This document shows, one piece after another, positions 4,585 to 39,089 of a stretch of DNA of 64,000 nt. A model generated the notes under the pieces. That model was not told where the DNA came from and made no database searches. It saw only the letters and a list, made by a program, of their open reading frames with translations. How positions within the stretch are numbered: the stretch's first letter is position 1; the number at the start of each line of letters is the position of its first letter. The translations under genes were made by a program, and so were the position numbers. The DNA is from Candidatus Electrothrix rattekaaiensis (GTDB lineage: Bacteria; Desulfobacterota; Desulfobulbia; Desulfobulbales; Desulfobulbaceae), in the NCBI GenBank assembly GCA_032595675.1, contig JAVQMD010000001.1, positions 1,520,640 through 1,584,639 of the forward strand. Reading direction: 5' to 3'.

Positions 4585-6381
4585 TTACTCTGTCGCTATC
4601 ATATCCGCCTTTACTTCAATACCGCGATCTGTCACGTCCATGTTCATCTGAACACGCATCTTTGCGTTTTTCATCGCTTCAAATACCGCTTTGGTTTCGT
4701 TCTGTTGCGCCTCCGGGATATCCAGACCGATCAAGGCATCACCGATCAGTCCGTAATACTTGCCGTAATCAATATCCACCGCCATAAGACCTCGTGATGC
4801 ATCCAAGGTTTCCGAGCGCAGGCCCTGAGCCAGAGCTTGAGATTTTTCGCCAGCATACACAGTCAGGTGAGAGCCGTTAATTGCCGCCATAACCGGAAAG
4901 GAGAGCGGCAAGGGCAAGGGCAGCTGAACCGGTGTGCCGTCCGCAGGCAATTGCAGTTCAGCAAGCGGCGGAAAGAAGGCACTCATCATCTGTACGAGGT
5001 TTGTTGGGTTCTTGACAGCCAGACTTATCAGGGCGTCAATACTCTTGGGCATAGGTGTCCCACCAGCTTCCGTTGTCTCTTCTAACTCCAATGACATCAA
5101 AGAAAATGCTAGGCCCTGTACACCAGGTGCCATTCCTGTCATCAGAGCAAGAGCTGCCGGTTGCTGCGACTTTGTATTCTCCTGCATCTCTTGCAAAAAG
5201 GAGCAACTGTACTGCTTCTGCGTAATGGTTGTCCAACGCGCTGTAAGAAAGGGAGCGATTTTTTCTACGTTAAAACCTATGCCAGCTGCAATGGCCTGTT
5301 TTTCAACAGAATTACCCGCAGCATATTGGGGAACAACCCCGCGAATGGATTGCAGACCATCAAGGAACGCCTTGTCCTTATTTTCAATCACCATCAGGGA
5401 ATCAATACGCGAAGGGGCGGCATCCAGTTCCAAGGCCGTATATCCAAAAACGGTTTTGGGCCAATTATTGCCGATCTCTGTCATATCGTTACGGCATCCT
5501 TGGGTCTGCAATTCCTCTAATAACTCAGACAACTCGGCTGAGCCTTGCAATTGCGGGACAAGTTTTTGCATCATCCTGGCAATGCTGTTTCCTTCTTTCG
5601 TAGTCAGGCCGGTAATCAATTGCTGATGATCAATATAACCGACGAAAGTGGGATGCAGTTTATACTGTTTTTGTAATGCCTCAACTCGTCCGCTTTCAGC
5701 CAAGGTCTTTTCGGGCTTCTGTTGCCCCAGAGCAATGGCAAGGGTCTGTTCGCTGTCAACGCCAAGATCCAGCATAAACACAGCGTGCTTGCGTTCATTG
5801 TCCACTCCGATGATGAGATCAACCGAAGGCTCTTTTTCATTCAGCGCGTAGCGACGATAGGTCGCCTTACCTAAGGTTTGCGGGTTACTGCCAATCTTTG
5901 CTTTCGCCTCCAGTTCATCAATTTTCTTATTGAAGAGCTGGATATCTTTCAAGCTGACACGCAATAAAACCGGGGCCAGTCCAACAGTATAGGTAGTGAG
6001 AAAAGCCTTTTCCTCTACACCCCATTTTTCCAGTTCTGTCTCTGGAGAGAGCATCATTGCGTAATAATCAAGCCAAAGCTGGGCTGCCAGACGTCGACCG
6101 GGAATTTTTTCGTCCTGAACAATCGGCAACATGCTGGCTGGATCAAGTGCTTTCAGGACATTAAAGTTGTCAGTGCTCCATTGTAAAACTTTCTGCAAAG
6201 GGGCTGGCTCTAAACCGCCGGAGAAAAAAATGGTATCATCAGGAACAACATCAAGCATGGTCACCGGCTTGGGTGGCTCGGGTTTTGGTTTTAATTGAAC
6301 CTCCTTTTCCTTTTTGTCACAGGCAAACAACAGCAGGGACACCAGAAGGAAGATCAGCACATTTTTTTTTGTCGATTTCAT
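4585..6381 (-). CDS. Large lipoprotein of unknown function
   Basis: A 598-residue exported lipoprotein. The start is placed at the ATG at 6381 because it follows AAAGGA and begins a clean signal peptide, MKSTKKNVLIFLLVSLLLFACDKK, with a lipobox Cys at about residue 22. A longer in-frame reading upstream adds only non-signal sequence. After the lipidated Cys comes a Lys/Glu/Pro-rich linker (KKEKEVQLKPKPEPPKP) and then a long soluble domain with no motif I recognise. Paired phrases such as DVVPDDTIFFSGGLEPAP and VMAAINGSHLTVYAGEKSQALAQGL suggest a DUF3352-like extracellular fold, but this is a guess. It stands alone, with its own terminator. Confidence 0.8.
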   Translation of the reverse strand: MKSTKKNVLIFLLVSLLLFACDKKEKEVQLKPKPEPPKPVTMLDVVPDDTIFFSGGLEPAPLQKVLQWSTDNFNVLKALDPASMLPIVQDEKIPGRRLAAQLWLDYYAMMLSPETELEKWGVEEKAFLTTYTVGLAPVLLRVSLKDIQLFNKKIDELEAKAKIGSNPQTLGKATYRRYALNEKEPSVDLIIGVDNERKHAVFMLDLGVDSEQTLAIALGQQKPEKTLAESGRVEALQKQYKLHPTFVGYIDHQQLITGLTTKEGNSIARMMQKLVPQLQGSAELSELLEELQTQGCRNDMTEIGNNWPKTVFGYTALELDAAPSRIDSLMVIENKDKAFLDGLQSIRGVVPQYAAGNSVEKQAIAAGIGFNVEKIAPFLTARWTTITQKQYSCSFLQEMQENTKSQQPAALALMTGMAPGVQGLAFSLMSLELEETTEAGGTPMPKSIDALISLAVKNPTNLVQMMSAFFPPLAELQLPADGTPVQLPLPLPLSFPVMAAINGSHLTVYAGEKSQALAQGLRSETLDASRGLMAVDIDYGKYYGLIGDALIGLDIPEAQQNETKAVFEAMKNAKMRVQMNMDVTDRGIEVKADMIATE

Positions 6382-7621: not shown

Positions 7622-8110
7622 TTATTTCGCGACAGAAGAGACAGAAGCACCTTCTTTGGGCCCGTAAGCCGCGCTCAATGCCTGCAATCCTCCCTTGAGG
7701 ATGTAGACATTATCAAACCCGATATGACGCAAGGCTGTCCCTGCCACTGTAGCCCGCGCGCCCGATTTGCAGATAATCAGCACCATCTTATCCGTAGGGA
7801 TACGTTTTAGGTTTTCTTCTTTAAATAGCTCATTCACTGGAATAGCCATACTGCCGGGCATGGTCATACCCAACATTGCTACTTCCCCAGACGTCCGCAC
7901 GTCAATCGCCACATACTCTTTTCCAGCCTGAAGATTTTTGATAAAGCCGTCCGGCTTAATAAAATGCAACTCTTTACCCACCTTGACGCCCTCTGCCGGG
8001 GCAAATAGTTTTGCATAGCTTGCAGCCATTTTGGCATCATACGACCATGCCGCAGAAGCAACACTCATACATACTCCGATGGCAACAGCCATTATCCCTA
8101 CCTTCTTCAT
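7622..8110 (-). CDS. Periplasmic single-domain rhodanese
   Basis: A 162-residue exported rhodanese-like protein. MKKVGIMAVAIGVCMSVASAAWS is a Sec signal peptide. The rhodanese domain follows, with YVAIDVRTSGEVAMLGMTMPGSMAIPVNELF and the active-site loop LIICKSGARATVAGTALRHIGFDNVYILKGG, whose Cys is the sulfur acceptor. A good Shine-Dalgarno sequence (GGAGGG) precedes the ATG at 8110. Such proteins commonly carry persulfide sulfur in sulfur-metabolising anaerobes. The substrate is unknown. Confidence 0.9.
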   Translation of the reverse strand: MKKVGIMAVAIGVCMSVASAAWSYDAKMAASYAKLFAPAEGVKVGKELHFIKPDGFIKNLQAGKEYVAIDVRTSGEVAMLGMTMPGSMAIPVNELFKEENLKRIPTDKMVLIICKSGARATVAGTALRHIGFDNVYILKGGLQALSAAYGPKEGASVSSVAK

Positions 8111-31909: not shown

Positions 31910-32172
31910 GAAGATACCAGCAGGGAAAAATGAAGAAAAATAACTCCTGCCCGTCTTTTTTAGACATTTCCTGAACGTCCCCTGCCAGTATTCCTTGAAC
32001 CCTTTTCCTGGCTGTTATATACTGCCGCTTTTAAATGAAAGTATTGACAGCTCCTTGGAGTCGTCCGATCAACTTTCATGTTTTGTTGTCCCTCCCCACA
32101 GGGAGGAATAGGTGTCACCTTGAACATTATCAGCAATTCCCCTCATTTTATTCACATATTTTTATCGAAACT

Positions 32173-34866
32173 ATGACAGAAAATAACACCCCGGAACAGA
32201 CTTCGGGCAAATACGACCTTCCCAAGGCCTATGCCTTTGAAGAAGTAGAACAACGCTGGTACGAATACTGGTTGGAACATAAAACCTTTAGTGCCAAGAT
32301 GGAGGAAGGTAAGGATGCATTTTCCATCGTTATTCCTCCACCCAATGTTACTGGTGTGCTCCATATCGGCCATGCCTTGAACAACACCCTCCAGGATCTG
32401 CTCACCCGCTATCACCGCATGAAGGGCGATAATACCCTTTGGGTGCCGGGCACGGATCACGCCGGTATTGCCACCCAAAACGTAGTGGAACGACAACTGG
32501 CCACGGAAGATAAAACCCGTCATGACCTAGGTAGGGACAAGTTCATTGAACGGGTCTGGCAATGGAAAACCGATAAAGGCGGCACCATTATCAATCAGCT
32601 CAAACGGATGGGCGCGTCCTGCGATTGGGACAGGGAACGCTTCACTATGGACGAAGGATTGTCCAAGGCCGTGCGCGAGGTTTTTGTCCGCCTGTATGAC
32701 GAAGGCCTGATCTATAAGGGCGACTACATTGTCAACTGGTGCCCACGCTGTCTTACCGCGCTCTCTGACGACGAGGTCGAGCATGACCCCACCAAAGGCA
32801 AGCTCTATCATTTGCGCTATCCCTATGCGGACGGTTCTAGCGAAGTGATCGTAGCTACCACCCGCCCAGAGACCATGCTGGGTGATACAGCGGTGGCCGT
32901 CCATCCCGAAGATGAAAGATATAAGGGATTAGAAAAAATCGGCATCAATCTGCCCTTGTCGGATCGGGTGATTCCGGTGGTGCTGGATCATCATGTGCAA
33001 CGGGAATTCGGGACCGGTGCCCTCAAGGTAACCCCATCCCATGACCGTGACGACTACGAAATCGGGCTACGTCATGATCTGGAACGAATTAAGATCATGG
33101 ACGACCACGGCATCATGAATGAGCATGCTGGCAAGTATGCTGGTATGGATCGCTTTGCCTGCCGTGAGCAGATTGTCAAGGATCTCGAAGAGATGGGTTT
33201 TCTGGACAAAATCGAAGAGTACGACCATGCAGTGGGCAAGTGCTATCGCTGCGCCACCGTGGTCGAGCCCACCACCTCCAAACAATGGTTTGTCTCGGTG
33301 CGCCCCTTGGCGGACAAGGCTGTGGCTGCGGTCCGGGAGGAACGAATCAAGCTCTACCCGGATACCTGGTACAATACCTTCTATGCCTGGATGGATAATA
33401 TCCGCGACTGGTGTATTTCCCGCCAAATTTGGTGGGGCCATCGGATTCCGGCCTGGACCTGCAAGGAATGCGGAAAACTGATAGTGGCCCTGGAGACTCC
33501 TGATGCCTGTCTTATCTGCGGCAGCACGGATCTTGAGCAGGAAACCGATGTGCTCGACACCTGGTTTTCCTCAGCCCTTTGGCCTTTTTCCACATTAGGC
33601 TGGCCTGAGCAGACCAAGGAGCTGGAGACCTTTTATCCAACCTCAGTGCTGATCACCAGTTTTGACATCCTCTTTTTCTGGGTCGCTCGGATGATGATGA
33701 TGGGCCTCCATTTCATGGATGAGGTACCGTTCCGCGATGTTTATCTGCACGCCTTGGTGCGCGATAAGCACGGCAAAAAAATGTCCAAATCCACGGGTAA
33801 CGTGATTGACCCGCTGGTCACTATGGGTCAGTACGGCACAGACGCCTTTCGCTTTACCCTGACTGCCTTTGCAGCCCAGGGCCGCGAGATCAAAATGGAT
33901 GAGGAGCGCATTGACGGCTACCGTCGTTTTATCAATAAGCTCTGGAACGCAGCCCGTTTTGCCCAGATGCACATCAAGGACAGCGATCCGAGCATCGTGG
34001 CCGCCGCAGAAAAGCCTGCTGATCTCGCCCTGCCCCACCGCTGGATTCTCAGTCGTACTAACGCCACTATTCGCGACGTGCGCAAGGCCTTGGACGGCTA
34101 TGATTTCAATCTGATCGCCTCAGCCATCTACCAGTTTACTTGGCATGAGTTCTGCGACTGGTATGTGGAGTGGATCAAGGCAGACCTGTTTTCTGATGAT
34201 GTAACAAAACGCGAGCAGGCCAGAGGCGTGCTCCTCTGTGTATTGGAAAACATCCTCAAGATGCTCCATCCTATCTGCCCCTTTGTTACCGAAGAAATCT
34301 GGAGCCAGCTGCCCGGCGAACGCGGCACCATCATGCTGGAAGCCTTTCCTGAGACCAACCCGGCTTGGCCAGATACTGAGGCGGATCAATCCATGCAGCT
34401 ACTGATGGATGTGATCTCTGCTACCCGTACCATCCGGAGCGAGGCTGATGTTCATCCGAGTGCTAAAGTGCATACCTCAATCATCTGCGCCGATGCGGCC
34501 AAGCGTGATCTGCTCAATGACTTTAACGATTCGCTCTGCTCCATGACCCGTTCTGAATCGCTCTCCATCATGGAAGCAGGCACTGTGCCGGACGATGCTG
34601 GCCATGTGCTCACTGAAAACGGGGTCGAGGTTTTTGTTCCGCTCAAGGATCTGATTGACGTGGAAGCGGAATTGGACAAGCTGGCCCGTGAGCGCAAGAA
34701 GATTGAGCAGGAACTCAAGCGGGTGCAGGGTAAGCTGGGGAATGCAAAATTCCTGAGCAATGCTCCTGATGCGGTGGTTGAGAAGGAAAAGGGCAAACAG
34801 GCGGAGCTGGAGACTCGCTTGACTAAGAATGAGGAATCAAGGGAGAGGTTGGGGAAATTGGGTTAA
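32173..34866 (+). CDS. valS: Valyl-tRNA synthetase
   Basis: An 897-residue class I synthetase that charges tRNA-Val and edits Thr. Signatures: PNVTGVLHIGHALNNTLQDLL (HIGH), the editing domain VIVATTRPETMLGDTAVAVHPED, KHGKKMSKSTGNVIDP (KMSKS), CYRCATVVEPTTSKQWFV, and a C-terminal coiled-coil arm (DVEAELDKLARERKKIEQELKRVQGKLGN). The start is set at the ATG at 32173 (MTENNTPEQTSGKYDLPKAYAFEEVEQRWYEYW) because the preceding 46 in-frame codons do not match the family. No strong ribosome-binding site is seen. The 260-base leader (31910-32172) has a 6-bp GC hairpin near 32092 and nothing else I recognise. Confidence 0.96.
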   Translation: MTENNTPEQTSGKYDLPKAYAFEEVEQRWYEYWLEHKTFSAKMEEGKDAFSIVIPPPNVTGVLHIGHALNNTLQDLLTRYHRMKGDNTLWVPGTDHAGIATQNVVERQLATEDKTRHDLGRDKFIERVWQWKTDKGGTIINQLKRMGASCDWDRERFTMDEGLSKAVREVFVRLYDEGLIYKGDYIVNWCPRCLTALSDDEVEHDPTKGKLYHLRYPYADGSSEVIVATTRPETMLGDTAVAVHPEDERYKGLEKIGINLPLSDRVIPVVLDHHVQREFGTGALKVTPSHDRDDYEIGLRHDLERIKIMDDHGIMNEHAGKYAGMDRFACREQIVKDLEEMGFLDKIEEYDHAVGKCYRCATVVEPTTSKQWFVSVRPLADKAVAAVREERIKLYPDTWYNTFYAWMDNIRDWCISRQIWWGHRIPAWTCKECGKLIVALETPDACLICGSTDLEQETDVLDTWFSSALWPFSTLGWPEQTKELETFYPTSVLITSFDILFFWVARMMMMGLHFMDEVPFRDVYLHALVRDKHGKKMSKSTGNVIDPLVTMGQYGTDAFRFTLTAFAAQGREIKMDEERIDGYRRFINKLWNAARFAQMHIKDSDPSIVAAAEKPADLALPHRWILSRTNATIRDVRKALDGYDFNLIASAIYQFTWHEFCDWYVEWIKADLFSDDVTKREQARGVLLCVLENILKMLHPICPFVTEEIWSQLPGERGTIMLEAFPETNPAWPDTEADQSMQLLMDVISATRTIRSEADVHPSAKVHTSIICADAAKRDLLNDFNDSLCSMTRSESLSIMEAGTVPDDAGHVLTENGVEVFVPLKDLIDVEAELDKLARERKKIEQELKRVQGKLGNAKFLSNAPDAVVEKEKGKQAELETRLTKNEESRERLGKLG

Positions 34867-34949
34867 ATAGCCCGTGCTTAAAACGTCCCACCTGACTCAC
34901 TAGCAGCGGGGGCTTGTTTTTTGTATCCATGCACCACAGAGGTTAAACG

Positions 34950-36053
34950 ATGATTGAACAGTTTGAGATTAAAAATTTCAGAGGCTTTTCTGAATATAAA
35001 ATTGACGATGTTGGGCAGGTAAATCTGCTGGTCGGCACGAATAACTGCGGGAAGACATCAATTCTCGAAGCGATTCGCCTGCTCAAATCAGAAGGAAACT
35101 TGTATGATCTTCTTTCCGTATTACTTAGAAGAGGTGAAAGAATCCAAAAAGATACCGAGGAAAACCGTAGAATTTATGGAGATTTATGCAGACTTTTTTA
35201 CGGTTTCGAGTTGAATCCAACCTCTTATTTTTCTATTACAGGACATATTAATAATCAAGACGAAGTAATATCCGTTTCTGTTCACGATATTCCGATCCAA
35301 CCTGAACTCTTCGAGAAGGAACCCGACTTTTCAGCAGGTTACCATCTTAATGTCCGTTGGAATGAAACGAAAGATCAAGATTTTCCGCTCAGTTTAGATG
35401 GTGGATTATCTTATGATTATATAAGAAGAAGGAGCAATATAAAACCGAGTACAGTAAAGGAAAGCAAACTTGAATTTGTACCAACCTCTTCTTTGTCCAC
35501 ACAAGAAATAGTTGCTTTATTTGAGGAGATAGTCCTAACGCCTGATGAAGACCTCGTGCTTGATGCCTTAAGAATTATTGAGCCTGATATTACTCGTCTC
35601 GCCTCACTTGGTGGAAACACTCGATATTATCCCCTTCGGCCAGGAAACTATGATCGTGGCGGACTCTTTGTTAAAACCAGCAAATGGGAAGAACGAGTCC
35701 CTATCGGCAGTTTTGGCGATGGCATCTGGCGATTACTCGGTCTCATTCTCTCTCTTGTTGCCGCAAAAAACGGCACCCTGCTCATTGACGAAATAGACAC
35801 CGGCCTGCACCACACTGTCATGTCAAAGATGTGGAAACTTATCTGTATCACTGCAAGAAAACTCAACGTCCAGGTCTTTGCAACCACCCACAGCAGCGAC
35901 TGCTGGAAAACGCTGGCAGATAATGCCGTTGAAGACGAGTTTGCCGACATGCCTATTCGTATCCATCGGATTGATAAAAACAAAAAGAAACCCGAAACCT
36001 TCACGAACAGAGAGATGCACCTTGCCGTAGATCGAGAAATAGAGGTGCGCTGA
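34950..36053 (+). CDS. AAA family ATPase (OLD/AAA_21-like)
   Basis: A 367-residue SMC/ABC-like ATPase. MIEQFEIKNFRGFSEYKI is the typical start, followed by Walker A LLVGTNNCGKTSILEAIRLL. The signature region is GSFGDGIWRLLGLILSLVAAKNGTLLIDEIDTGLHH with Walker B (TLLIDEID), then VQVFATTHSSDCWKTL (switch His). The Toprim domain of a classic OLD nuclease is absent from this polypeptide. Instead a separate DUF3226 protein starts one base after the stop. Such split ATPase-plus-Toprim pairs occur in phage defence (PARIS, OLD-like). Defence here is inference; no phage or transposon genes flank it. Confidence 0.88.
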   Translation: MIEQFEIKNFRGFSEYKIDDVGQVNLLVGTNNCGKTSILEAIRLLKSEGNLYDLLSVLLRRGERIQKDTEENRRIYGDLCRLFYGFELNPTSYFSITGHINNQDEVISVSVHDIPIQPELFEKEPDFSAGYHLNVRWNETKDQDFPLSLDGGLSYDYIRRRSNIKPSTVKESKLEFVPTSSLSTQEIVALFEEIVLTPDEDLVLDALRIIEPDITRLASLGGNTRYYPLRPGNYDRGGLFVKTSKWEERVPIGSFGDGIWRLLGLILSLVAAKNGTLLIDEIDTGLHHTVMSKMWKLICITARKLNVQVFATTHSSDCWKTLADNAVEDEFADMPIRIHRIDKNKKKPETFTNREMHLAVDREIEVR

Positions 36054-36054
36054 C

Positions 36055-36768
36055 ATGGCCCGTCAATACGAGAAGATTCTCCTCGTTGAGGGTGCAGAAG
36101 ATCAACGAGTCATTCCTGAACTTGTCGAAGCAAACGGCATACAGTGGGGCGAAGAGAAAAAAGACTGGATAGTTGAAATCAAATCTATGGATGGTGTCGA
36201 GAATCTCCTGAATAAAGAGGAGATCAATGTCCAGCTAAAGGCATCTGGCTTAAAAATTATGGGTATTATCGTTGACGCCGATGACAAGCCTGCCCATCGT
36301 TGGCAAAGCATCCGTAATTGCCTGCTTGAACGATACCCGGATATCCCCGAAGAATTGCCTGCAACCGGCTTAATCCATCACGGTGAAATCAAAATCGGAG
36401 TATGGATGATGCCTGATAATCAAAAACGAGGCATGCTGGAGACCTTTCTTGAATTTCTTCTCCCGGATAATAGCGAGGCGTTATGGGAACTGGCCGGGAA
36501 AACCTGCGAACAAGCCGCTGTAAATGGAGCAAGGTTTAAAGAAGCTCACACTGACAAAGCCAAAATCCATACTTGGCTGGCTTGGCAGAATCCGCCGGGA
36601 CGACAAATGCATGATGCGGTCAAGCAGCGTATTTTCTCGCCGACTTCGCCGCAGGCAGCCGTTTTTAAGCAGTGGTTTCAGGATTTGTTCGAGGTCACAG
36701 TAACCCTGAAGAAGGACGGAGAGACGGCCAAGCGCAGAATGAGAGAGCCGAAGCGATGTTCGTTGTAA
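36055..36768 (+). CDS. DUF3226 (Toprim-like) partner protein with altered C-terminus
   Basis: A 237-residue DUF3226 protein. KILLVEGAEDQRVIPELVEANGI and LKIMGIIVDADDKPAHRWQSIRNCL carry the Toprim-like Glu and DxD residues, and IKIGVWMMPDNQKRGMLETFLEFLL is also characteristic of the family. It is translationally coupled to the ATPase (stop at 36053, ATG at 36055). The last ~65 codons (from 36502) recur at 38099-38300. There the natural end appears to be ...WFQELFEVTR, stop. Here it is replaced after FEVT by a basic tail, VTLKKDGETAKRRMREPKRCSL, so the gene's 3' end was rewritten by the rearrangement that brought in the decarboxylase. Confidence 0.85.
   Translation: MARQYEKILLVEGAEDQRVIPELVEANGIQWGEEKKDWIVEIKSMDGVENLLNKEEINVQLKASGLKIMGIIVDADDKPAHRWQSIRNCLLERYPDIPEELPATGLIHHGEIKIGVWMMPDNQKRGMLETFLEFLLPDNSEALWELAGKTCEQAAVNGARFKEAHTDKAKIHTWLAWQNPPGRQMHDAVKQRIFSPTSPQAAVFKQWFQDLFEVTVTLKKDGETAKRRMREPKRCSL
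36502..36697 (+). repeat. Direct repeat, copy 1 (3' part of the DUF3226 gene)
   Basis: About 196 bases, roughly nine in ten identical by eye to 38099-38299, in the same orientation. Homology starts at ACCTGCGAAC in both copies and ends near GAGGT(C/T)AC. The PLP decarboxylase gene lies exactly between the copies. Confidence 0.9.
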
Positions 36769-36769
36769 A

Positions 36770-38137
36770 ATGCCTCACAATCAAAAATTAGAAAAGTACA
36801 TGCACTGGGAAAAATTTGCCGATTCGGCAGCTATGAACCTGTATCTGGAAGAAAAACTGGTTCTGAACAACCGCTACAGCACGGATAGCATTATGGGCGT
36901 ACCTGCTTCGGTGCTGGACCGGGAAATTTTTCCGTACAGCATTGCCCCGGACTCTATCTACTGGAAGCTGCTGCGTGAAAATCCCAATCATATCGGTTGC
37001 CACACTCTTTCAGGCAGCGAGCCGTTTTTTCGCGGCACCCAGGAGATTGAAAAGGAGCTGCTGCAAATCTGCGCTAAGGAGATCCTTGGTGCTGAAGCGG
37101 ACGACTATGACGGCTATGTTTCCAGCGGCGGCACGGAGTCGAATATTCAAGCTCTATGGATATTCAGAAACCGCTACATCCTTGAGAACTGCGTGCAGGA
37201 GGCAGATCAGGCTGACCCTGACGCGCTCCAGCACTGTTTTCTGCGCCACATTCAAGACATTGATGTGATCTGCTCCGAAGATACGCATTACTCTGTCCAC
37301 AAGGCGGCAAATATTCTTAATCTCCACCAGACAGACATTCCGGTTGACGAGCGCACCCGGCAAATCAGGCTGGATATCCTGTCTGATCATATTGACCAGG
37401 AGCAGGCTGGCGGTAAGAAATTCTTTATTATTGTCCTGAATATGGGCACCACCATGTTCGGCTCCGTAGATGAGGTCGCACCGATAACGGATGTGCTGGA
37501 TGCAAAACAAGTTGATTATGTGATTCATATTGATGCCGCATTCGGCGGTTTTATCTACCCCTTCACCTGTCTGGAAAACAAACTCTCCTTTCGCAACAGG
37601 AAAATCAGTTCCTTCACCTTGGATGCGCACAAGATGCTGCAGGCACCCTACGGCACCGGTATCTTTCTTATCAGACGGCAAGCGGACGGCAGAAGTCTGC
37701 TGGACTATGTGACCACGGTTAAGGCAGGCTATGTCAAAGGCTTTGACAGCACCCTCTGCGGCAGCCGCTCCGGGGCGAATGCTGTTTCCATCTGGATGAT
37801 CTTAAAAATGTACGGTGCGGACGGAGGTACAGCCTTTTGTCAGGATTTACTCCGCCGAACCGAGCTGATCTGCTCCGCCTTGGAGAGCCTGGGCGTGGAG
37901 TATTTCCGCAATCCATTTATGAATATTGTTGCTTTGAGGGCTTCTGAAAAAATCAGACCGGTTGCGGAGAGACATCATTTAGTTCCTGACAGCCACGACG
38001 GCGCAGCGTGCTGGTACAAAATCGTGGTGATGGATCATGTCAGCGAAGAAATGATTGATGCCTTTCTTCAGGATATGAAAAAGACTCTGGTCGGACAGAC
38101 CTGCGAACAAGCCGCTGCAAAAGGGGGCAAGGTTTAA
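36770..38137 (+). CDS. Pyridoxal-phosphate-dependent decarboxylase, group II
   Basis: A 455-residue group II (glutamate/tyrosine/aspartate-type) amino acid decarboxylase. YDGYVSSGGTESNIQALWIFRNRY binds the PLP phosphate, VICSEDTHYSVHKAANIL holds the ring-stacking His, YVIHIDAAFGGFIYPF the Asp for the pyridine N, and FTLDAHKMLQAPYGTGIFLIRR the Schiff-base Lys. Substrate is not predictable. The start is one base after the DUF3226 stop. The final 13 residues (QTCEQAAAKGGKV) come from the repeated DUF3226 segment rather than from the decarboxylase family, so the C-terminus is a fusion scar. Confidence 0.9.
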   Translation: MPHNQKLEKYMHWEKFADSAAMNLYLEEKLVLNNRYSTDSIMGVPASVLDREIFPYSIAPDSIYWKLLRENPNHIGCHTLSGSEPFFRGTQEIEKELLQICAKEILGAEADDYDGYVSSGGTESNIQALWIFRNRYILENCVQEADQADPDALQHCFLRHIQDIDVICSEDTHYSVHKAANILNLHQTDIPVDERTRQIRLDILSDHIDQEQAGGKKFFIIVLNMGTTMFGSVDEVAPITDVLDAKQVDYVIHIDAAFGGFIYPFTCLENKLSFRNRKISSFTLDAHKMLQAPYGTGIFLIRRQADGRSLLDYVTTVKAGYVKGFDSTLCGSRSGANAVSIWMILKMYGADGGTAFCQDLLRRTELICSALESLGVEYFRNPFMNIVALRASEKIRPVAERHHLVPDSHDGAACWYKIVVMDHVSEEMIDAFLQDMKKTLVGQTCEQAAAKGGKV

Positions 38138-38305
38138 AAAAGCTCACACTGATAAAGCCAAAAGATCCATACTTGGCTGGCTTGGCAGAATCCTCCGGGC
38201 AGACAAATGCATGATGCGGTCAAGCAGCGTATTTTCTCGCCAACTTCGCCACAGGCGGCTCCCTTCATGCAATGGTTCCAGGAACTGTTTGAGGTTACCC
38301 GCTGA
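38099..38305 (+). pseudogene. Orphan 3' fragment of a DUF3226 gene (direct repeat, copy 2)
   Basis: About 200 bases matching the end of the DUF3226 gene, with small insertions (for example two extra bases near 38164) that break the frame. It ends in ...FMQWFQELFEVTR, stop at 38303-38305, probably the ancestral terminus. The first bases are used by the decarboxylase reading frame. No start signal, so it is not a gene by itself. Confidence 0.85.
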
Positions 38306-38333: not shown

Positions 38334-39089
38334 TTACTGAATACCAAAAACTTTTTTCAATAGTGCTGTCGTCTGTTTTGCGGAATCTTTACGAATACTC
38401 GCCTCTTCTTTTGCTACGTAGAAAAATATTCCTTCCAGCCCTTTTTGAAGTACATGTTCTGTTAAATTTGTTTTAACATCAGGTACAAATGGCAACGTGT
38501 TATATTGACGGGTAATCTGGTCATACGCTTGAATTGCCCCTACCTGTGACAGCGTATTTTCAACTAGAGGTTGCATTTCTTTTTTTAAAGGCGGGGACAT
38601 TTTGCTCTGGAAATACTTTGTCGCAGAATTTTCAGGCCCTTCATAAATTTTCATTATGTCTTGAAAAGTCATGTCGGTTATTGCTTGCAAGAAAAGTTGT
38701 TTGGCTTTTTGAGTCGCAGACTCTGCTGCTCGGTTCAACTTTACTTCAAGTTCGTCAGATAGTTGAGACATTCCAACCTGAGATAACATCGTTTTTATTG
38801 CATTGAGTTCTACCGGTAAAGGTATATGGATAGCTGGGTCGGCATTGAAACCATCCGTGGCACCCAGTTTGCTCACTACATTTTCAGTCCCAATACGAAG
38901 TGCTTGTTTAAATGCCTCTCCGATCTCATCATCGCTCGATTTTTTTAATACTTTCCCCTCAGTTCCCTGACTCAAGTTGTTTAAAATAGTAACCCCGTCA
39001 TTCAACCAAGAGCCTTCTGCATATGCTGGATTTGGTAACCATGAAGATATAACCCCTACTGCACCCATGATAATTAAAGCGTTTTTCAT
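38334..39089 (-). CDS. DUF4197 periplasmic protein
   Basis: A 251-residue exported protein. MKNALIIMGAVGVISSWLPNPAYAEG is a signal peptide. The mature part is DUF4197: SSDDEIGEAFKQALRIGTENVVSKLGATDGFNADPAIHIPLPVELNAIKTMLSQVGM, FLQAITDMTFQDIMKIYEGPENSATKYFQSKMSPPL, YVAKEEASIRKDSAKQTTALLKKVFG. Function is unknown. It converges with the DUF3226 remnant and has no co-transcribed partner. Confidence 0.9.
   Translation of the reverse strand: MKNALIIMGAVGVISSWLPNPAYAEGSWLNDGVTILNNLSQGTEGKVLKKSSDDEIGEAFKQALRIGTENVVSKLGATDGFNADPAIHIPLPVELNAIKTMLSQVGMSQLSDELEVKLNRAAESATQKAKQLFLQAITDMTFQDIMKIYEGPENSATKYFQSKMSPPLKKEMQPLVENTLSQVGAIQAYDQITRQYNTLPFVPDVKTNLTEHVLQKGLEGIFFYVAKEEASIRKDSAKQTTALLKKVFGIQ

Follow-up and report, generated by a model that had tools for sequence, protein, structure and literature searches.

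The gene of a PLP decarboxylase in Candidatus Electrothrix rattekaaiensis lies between two diverged copies of the 3' end of its upstream neighbour, a DUF3226 gene. We consider it reasonably probable that it arrived by one-sided homology: a donor gene end with its cargo entered by recombination, the far join was illegitimate, and the native gene end was displaced downstream. The window, i.e., the whole stretch of DNA that was analysed, comprises 64,000 nucleotides. The same anatomy is seen at other gene ends of the genus (Table 1; G000 is the genome of the window, the other G numbers denote genomes compared with it).

Table 1. Features around the decarboxylase gene in the window, and further gene ends with cargo in the genus
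Feature	Position	Strand	Content or cargo	Basis or remark
valS	32035..34866	+	valyl-tRNA synthetase, upstream neighbour	Pfam
ATPase gene	34950..36053	+	AAA_15/AAA_21 ATPase, PADLOC PDC-M38A (AbiLi/AriA-like), gene 1 of the putative defence pair	Pfam, PADLOC
DUF3226 gene	36055..36768	+	PADLOC PDC-M38B; its 3' part is P, then an unusual tail	Pfam, PADLOC
Proximal repeat copy P	36490..36698	+	3' end of DUF3226, presumed donor allele	
P tail	36699..36768	+	VTLKKDGETAKRRMREPKRCSL, then stop	DNA collinear with G006 DUF3226 tail and displaced valS end
Decarboxylase gene	36770..38137	+	group II PLP decarboxylase (Pyridoxal_deC), cargo	Pfam
Distal repeat copy D	38087..38298	+	presumed displaced native 3' end of DUF3226, DUF3226 coding lost	
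Native DUF3226 stop codon	38303..38305	+	TGA, presumably left behind by displacement	G003 end CCGCTGAATAAAACAAATCAC matches
DUF4197 gene	38334..39089	-	native downstream neighbour	Pfam; 84% in G006
G000 thiH end			PIN-domain gene	
G000 flavoprotein (HI0933-like) end			UPF0175 + DUF3368	
G000 lysS end			HEPN + nucleotidyltransferase	
G000 sulP end			AAA ATPase + DUF4276-like	DUF4276-like: just below Pfam cut-off
G003 metG end			ABC three-component system (CTD7, MC3, DUF3732)	L059, insert about 4.2 kb
G006 valS end			gene X + ATPase-DUF3226 pair	
G006 lysS end			HicB-like antitoxin	
G006 WD40 gene end			MazE-like + PIN	
G006 Rpn-like gene end			PIN + DUF2281-like	
G006 flavoprotein end			trypsin-like protease	
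G004 and G007 lysS end			DUF6398	

The ATPase and DUF3226 genes are adjacent. They match their PADLOC models at 5.1e-82 (PDC-M38A) and 1.4e-69 (PDC-M38B) and make up a candidate defence system. In relatives the DUF3226 protein is uninterrupted and ends at LFEV/LFEI or a few residues away. The initial annotation had read the locus as a defence gene whose 3' end took up another gene; this is supported, and the gene taken up is foreign. The pair is found behind valS in G000, G006, G003 and, in another genus, G010; behind metG in G004, G007 and G001; and, in G016 and G046, behind a gene named DNA topoisomerase III-like from inspection of its sequence, not from a search. Seven genomes of the family carry the pair directly after an aminoacyl-tRNA synthetase gene, be it valS or metG (L034, L037, L038, L042 and positions 32035-36768 of the window). 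In the siblings G006 and G003 the 3' end of valS is itself the site of an insertion. A DUF4197 gene also lies downstream of DUF3226 in G006, where there is no decarboxylase and a valS remnant lies in between. The DUF3226 gene of G006 (L035 7131-7790) is probably a pseudogene, as it contains an in-frame TGA and TAA.

The decarboxylase matches Pfam Pyridoxal_deC at 1.3e-27 and has a full-length fold with the PLP lysine motif DAHKM. Its nearest NCBIfam model is MfnA/histidine decarboxylase, with scores below the equivalog cut-offs. Full-length relatives at 43-50% occur in Bacteroidetes, Myxococcales and others. No close homologue was found in the 7 siblings, and a distant one in G007 alone. Among 80 relatives there was no decarboxylase beside DUF3226, and the order DUF3226, then this decarboxylase, was met in no sampled genome. 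The 16 C-terminal residues of the enzyme (LVGQTCEQAAAKGGKV) are read from D, residue 440 beginning at 38087; the initial annotation had counted 13. Since the homologues end at about the start of this repeat, the decarboxylase's own stop is, judged by this comparison, lost at the junction with D.

The repeats themselves are confirmed. As had been noticed from the letters alone, they surround the decarboxylase in the same orientation; they are 86% identical over 212 columns of a pairwise alignment, D differing from P also by two small insertions (+1 and +2 nt). The match has an E value of 4e-64 in the self-comparison, which excludes chance, and the genome holds these two copies and no third one. 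D continues into ACCCGCTGA, reading on through CCGCTGA, and the DNA beyond matches the DUF3226 end of the sibling G003 (score 31; 0/1000 shuffles). Together with the protein ends of the relatives, this supports the earlier assignment of the ancestral stop to the distal copy. P, on its part, runs into a basic tail of 23 residues that ends at 36768. This tail had been called foreign, and the DUF3226 family model, which covers the protein up to residue 213, does not include it; its DNA, however, has a homologue in G006. There, about 86 nt run collinear with the DNA behind DUF3226, the displaced valS end included; the score is 42, shuffles average 22.3 (sd 4.3), and 2/2000 of them reach it. A homologous tail elsewhere had been named beforehand as evidence against an insertion. 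G006 provides this in part, but what it points to is the type of the donor, and the insertion stands. Derivation of the tail from the window's own valS end was also considered and gave no signal, 180/1000 shuffles reaching the score.

The two copies differ in their affinities. The coding part of D is closer to G003 (74.5%) than to G006 (70.0%), and that of P is closer to G006 (71.4%) than to G003 (70.1%), the latter difference being slight. To each other they are 86% identical, as against at most 76.5% to other alleles. Their substitutions fall on third codon positions in 18 of 27 instances, and so do 6 of the 8 changes assigned to the branch of D, which no longer codes. Because the end of D matches the G003 type and the tail of P is collinear with G006, P and D are probably two alleles side by side, neither a duplicated target nor a collapsed tandem. 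By comparison with homologues, D carries the native DUF3226 end of one allele, the G003-type one.

We infer from this anatomy an uptake of DNA, a role of RecA, an illegitimate join and a related donor. The decarboxylase would have arrived from a close relative on a fragment comprising the 3' end of a DUF3226 allele, the DNA following it and the decarboxylase gene. Homologous recombination would have joined the left part of this fragment to the resident DUF3226 gene within its 3' part, and the resident gene would thereby have gained the donor's 3' end (P) and, with the donor's post-DUF3226 DNA, the basic tail. The right end, within the last decarboxylase codons, would have been joined at 38087 without extensive homology, so that a remnant without coding function, made up of the resident 3' end (D) and its stop, persists downstream. 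The join may have been a classical homology-facilitated illegitimate recombination (HFIR) of linear DNA, or the fragment may have been end-joined into a circle that entered by a single crossover; the data fit both forms alike. It speaks against this reading that P and D are mutually closest in several cases, so that the donor must be sought in a close, unsampled lineage, and that DUF3226 with this decarboxylase behind it was met in no sampled genome.

Displaced gene ends were looked for in 864 kb of the own genome and in siblings, and the anatomy was found again at the 3' ends of valS, metG, lysS, thiH, sulP and a flavoprotein gene. (The valS genes were named by Pfam; thiH, lysS, sulP, metG, Rpn, WD40 and the HI0933-like flavoprotein by inspection.) The majority of the cargos are toxin-antitoxin or defence modules, and in the cargos examined no recombinase was recognised. 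That many gene ends of the genus bear this footprint argues for a recurrent route of entry, mainly of such modules. In G006 (L035), the last 38 nt of valS at 4902-4939 recur at 7813-7850, beyond gene X, the ATPase and DUF3226, and the valS protein now ends in KLQ instead of KLG. The distal valS copy of G003 is weaker and gapped and served as support only.

The metG gene of G003 is instructive. A displaced metG end of 91 nt lies beyond the ABC three-component defence system, and the protein ends in VGSRVS, whereas every sibling ends in PGSRVA. D is closer than P to 7/7 orthologues (79-87% vs 73-82%), 5/7 of P's own changes are at third positions, and identity to G006 drops from about 92% to about 82% across the final 400 nt of metG. 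Uninterrupted sites, where the DNA downstream of D stands directly behind the gene end, are found for thiH in G007 (269/285), sulP in G003 (247/259), lysS in G004 (210/259) and G007 (211/259), and metG in G006 (188/220). The sulP gene has a more complicated record. In G004 the same ATPase cargo comes immediately after sulP, without a distal copy in the stretch examined, which resembles the arrangement expected of a donor. In G000 the sulP copies are 95.5% identical, compared with 94% to the nearest other allele; their final 97 nt are identical and their left 36 nt differ, a patchiness that suggests later gene conversion or a different history. The ancestry of the flavoprotein ends in G000 is ambiguous, the native end not being clearly that of D, and the ancestral thiH end is ambiguous across the genus. 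The sulP pattern and these two ambiguities, too, count against the preferred reading.

The lysS end is a hot spot (L231, L232, L234, L235): G000, G006 and G004/G007 carry differing cargos there, and a displaced lysS end accompanies every one of them. Nested insertions are seen in G000, a DUF6398-like gene, as in G004/G007, lying behind the newer HEPN/nucleotidyltransferase insertion. The left junctions at lysS vary (32-44, 102 and 121 nt), which argues against a fixed attachment site.

For a count, open reading frames of at least 150 aa were scanned for partial repeats, either of their end on the downstream side or of their start on the upstream side; tandem repeats, CRISPR and paralogues were then removed from the many raw hits by eye. 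About 7 gene-end cases remained in G000 and 4 in G006, none in the controls G058 and G062. This amounts to 11/846 versus 0/550 (p 0.004), the 11 including the case of the window, which is outside the scan's 40-nt limit and without which the contrast is slightly weaker. Gene-start cases numbered about 4; the bias towards gene ends (p 0.06) is suggestive only, and it could have arisen because insertions at gene starts are selected against. Inverted copies of gene ends were seen in none of the genus genomes. Over 13 cases, which are partly dependent in that lysS of G004 and G007 represents one ancestral insertion, third codon positions hold 84 of the 130 sites at which P and D differ (p 3e-13 against 1/3), which means that their divergence took place mostly in working genes. 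From the end of the repeat to the stop codon of P it is 0-7 nt in 10 of the 13 cases (13, 30 and 70 in the others), which is what one expects of a homology that does not extend past the coding sequence.

Two other repeats of G000 were encountered on the way. Direct repeats of 101 bp and 95% identity (C1 734737-734835 / 735662-735762, scan-local, L076) enclose an intergenic two-gene cassette that is not at a gene end. A recent exact tandem duplication (C1 281327-282555, scan-local; L053-L103 stretch, L098-L099 area) affects a ketoacyl-synthase-like/acyl carrier gene region.

Upon insertion, the gene end of the recipient itself could also have been duplicated, as with restriction-modification genes of Helicobacter, the copies diverging later. 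The topology, the kind of cargo (defence, toxin-antitoxin) and a repeat length of tens to hundreds of bp agree with this, as far as the account in PMC1643837 goes, and so does the mutual proximity of P and D in several cases. We nevertheless hold it to be unlikely. It leaves unexplained why third positions prevail among the differences although D is non-coding, why the ends of P and D match different sibling alleles, and why the repeats end at the stop codon and not at random points; at metG, moreover, the native-like copy is D, and P is the outlier. The long duplication of one sequence that the initial annotation had offered thus finds no support.

A site-specific element in the style of e14 in icd, served by a tyrosine recombinase or another integrase acting in trans or since lost, would carry a substitute 3' end in its attachment site and leave an identical final anatomy, the substitute end on the left and the displaced native end on the right. 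It appears improbable. The targets (valS, metG, lysS, thiH, sulP, DUF3226) are unrelated in sequence, and the left junction differs between the insertions at lysS. Site-specific integration as the first choice was rejected, since no recombinase was recognised and the boundaries are variable. A shade less probable still is the collapsed tandem that had been proposed as the other option, i.e., two ATPase-DUF3226 pairs around the decarboxylase, most of the second having been deleted. Diverged alleles in direct order and the same type of junction would indeed result, but no sibling contains a tandem pair, and the many loci of the same anatomy, single-copy essential genes among them, remain unexplained together with their empty sites in siblings. 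An assembly artefact, for which nothing but the existence of a repeat can be adduced, is hardly credible with copies that differ by 14% within a 2.69-Mb contig and with similar structures in independently assembled genomes.

Entry by one-sided homology, our preferred reading, bears on a long-standing question, namely how toxin-antitoxin and defence modules of small size can move while lacking a recombinase of their own. The footprints are readable here: a substitute end, a cargo, a displaced native end and empty sites in siblings. The target gene is kept working, which makes conserved gene ends safe landing sites, and displaced gene ends can be counted and dated. The insertion also accounts for the truncated C-terminus of the decarboxylase and the odd tail of DUF3226, which would otherwise be misread in annotation as features of the proteins. 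It is conceivable, if still speculative, that the toxin-antitoxin and defence modules of the genus spread chiefly in this recombinase-free way, with conserved genes offering their 3' ends as landing pads for one-sided homology, and with trains of displaced ends as a record of acquisitions.

How does this compare with known systems? Prophage e14 in icd and other elements that replace 3' ends supply a substitute end and displace the native one downstream. Here there is no recognised integrase in the element, the cargo comprises one to four genes, the targets are many and unrelated, and the left boundary is variable; the differing lysS boundaries do not reveal a common crossover core. In the minimal mobile elements of Neisseria, cargo is swapped between conserved genes via flanking homology. 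There, unlike here, homology is on both sides and no gene end is displaced. In rhs/cdi genes the arriving 3' end, which encodes a new C-terminus, takes the place of the former one, and the latter persists as an orphan farther downstream. What arrives as cargo in that case is the toxin tip, whereas in the present insertions the target keeps its product and the genome gains unrelated genes.

The closest precedents are insertion with long target duplication and homology-facilitated illegitimate recombination. The former (Nobusato et al. 2000, via PMC1643837 and PMC3154945), as far as these accounts describe it, likewise places defence-type genes between long direct repeats of the target without a recombinase. 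Direct target repeats flank the cargo here too, and thiH, sulP, lysS and metG have empty sites. The difference, again within the scope of these accounts, is that gene 3' ends are affected, that the repeats run up to the stop codon, and that the copies look allelic, not derived from one recipient sequence; the classical model, as outlined in PMC1643837, covers the topology, not the allele evidence. HFIR is defined by homology on one side and no or short homology (3-10 bp) on the other (PMC3240628). In our case one side shows homologous recombination with a divergent allele, the donor strain of which was not found, and the far junction lies inside the last codons of the decarboxylase, both parents being unsampled. 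HFIR needs RecA and DNA uptake; the competence genes dprA and comEC are present here, though both are widespread. In the same work, end-joined DNA with a single crossover produced a partial duplication of the end of lacZ, the topology of which is the one described here. Those were laboratory events with markers (PMC3240628); the insertions in this genus are natural, recurrent, located at gene 3' ends and enriched in toxin-antitoxin and defence genes.
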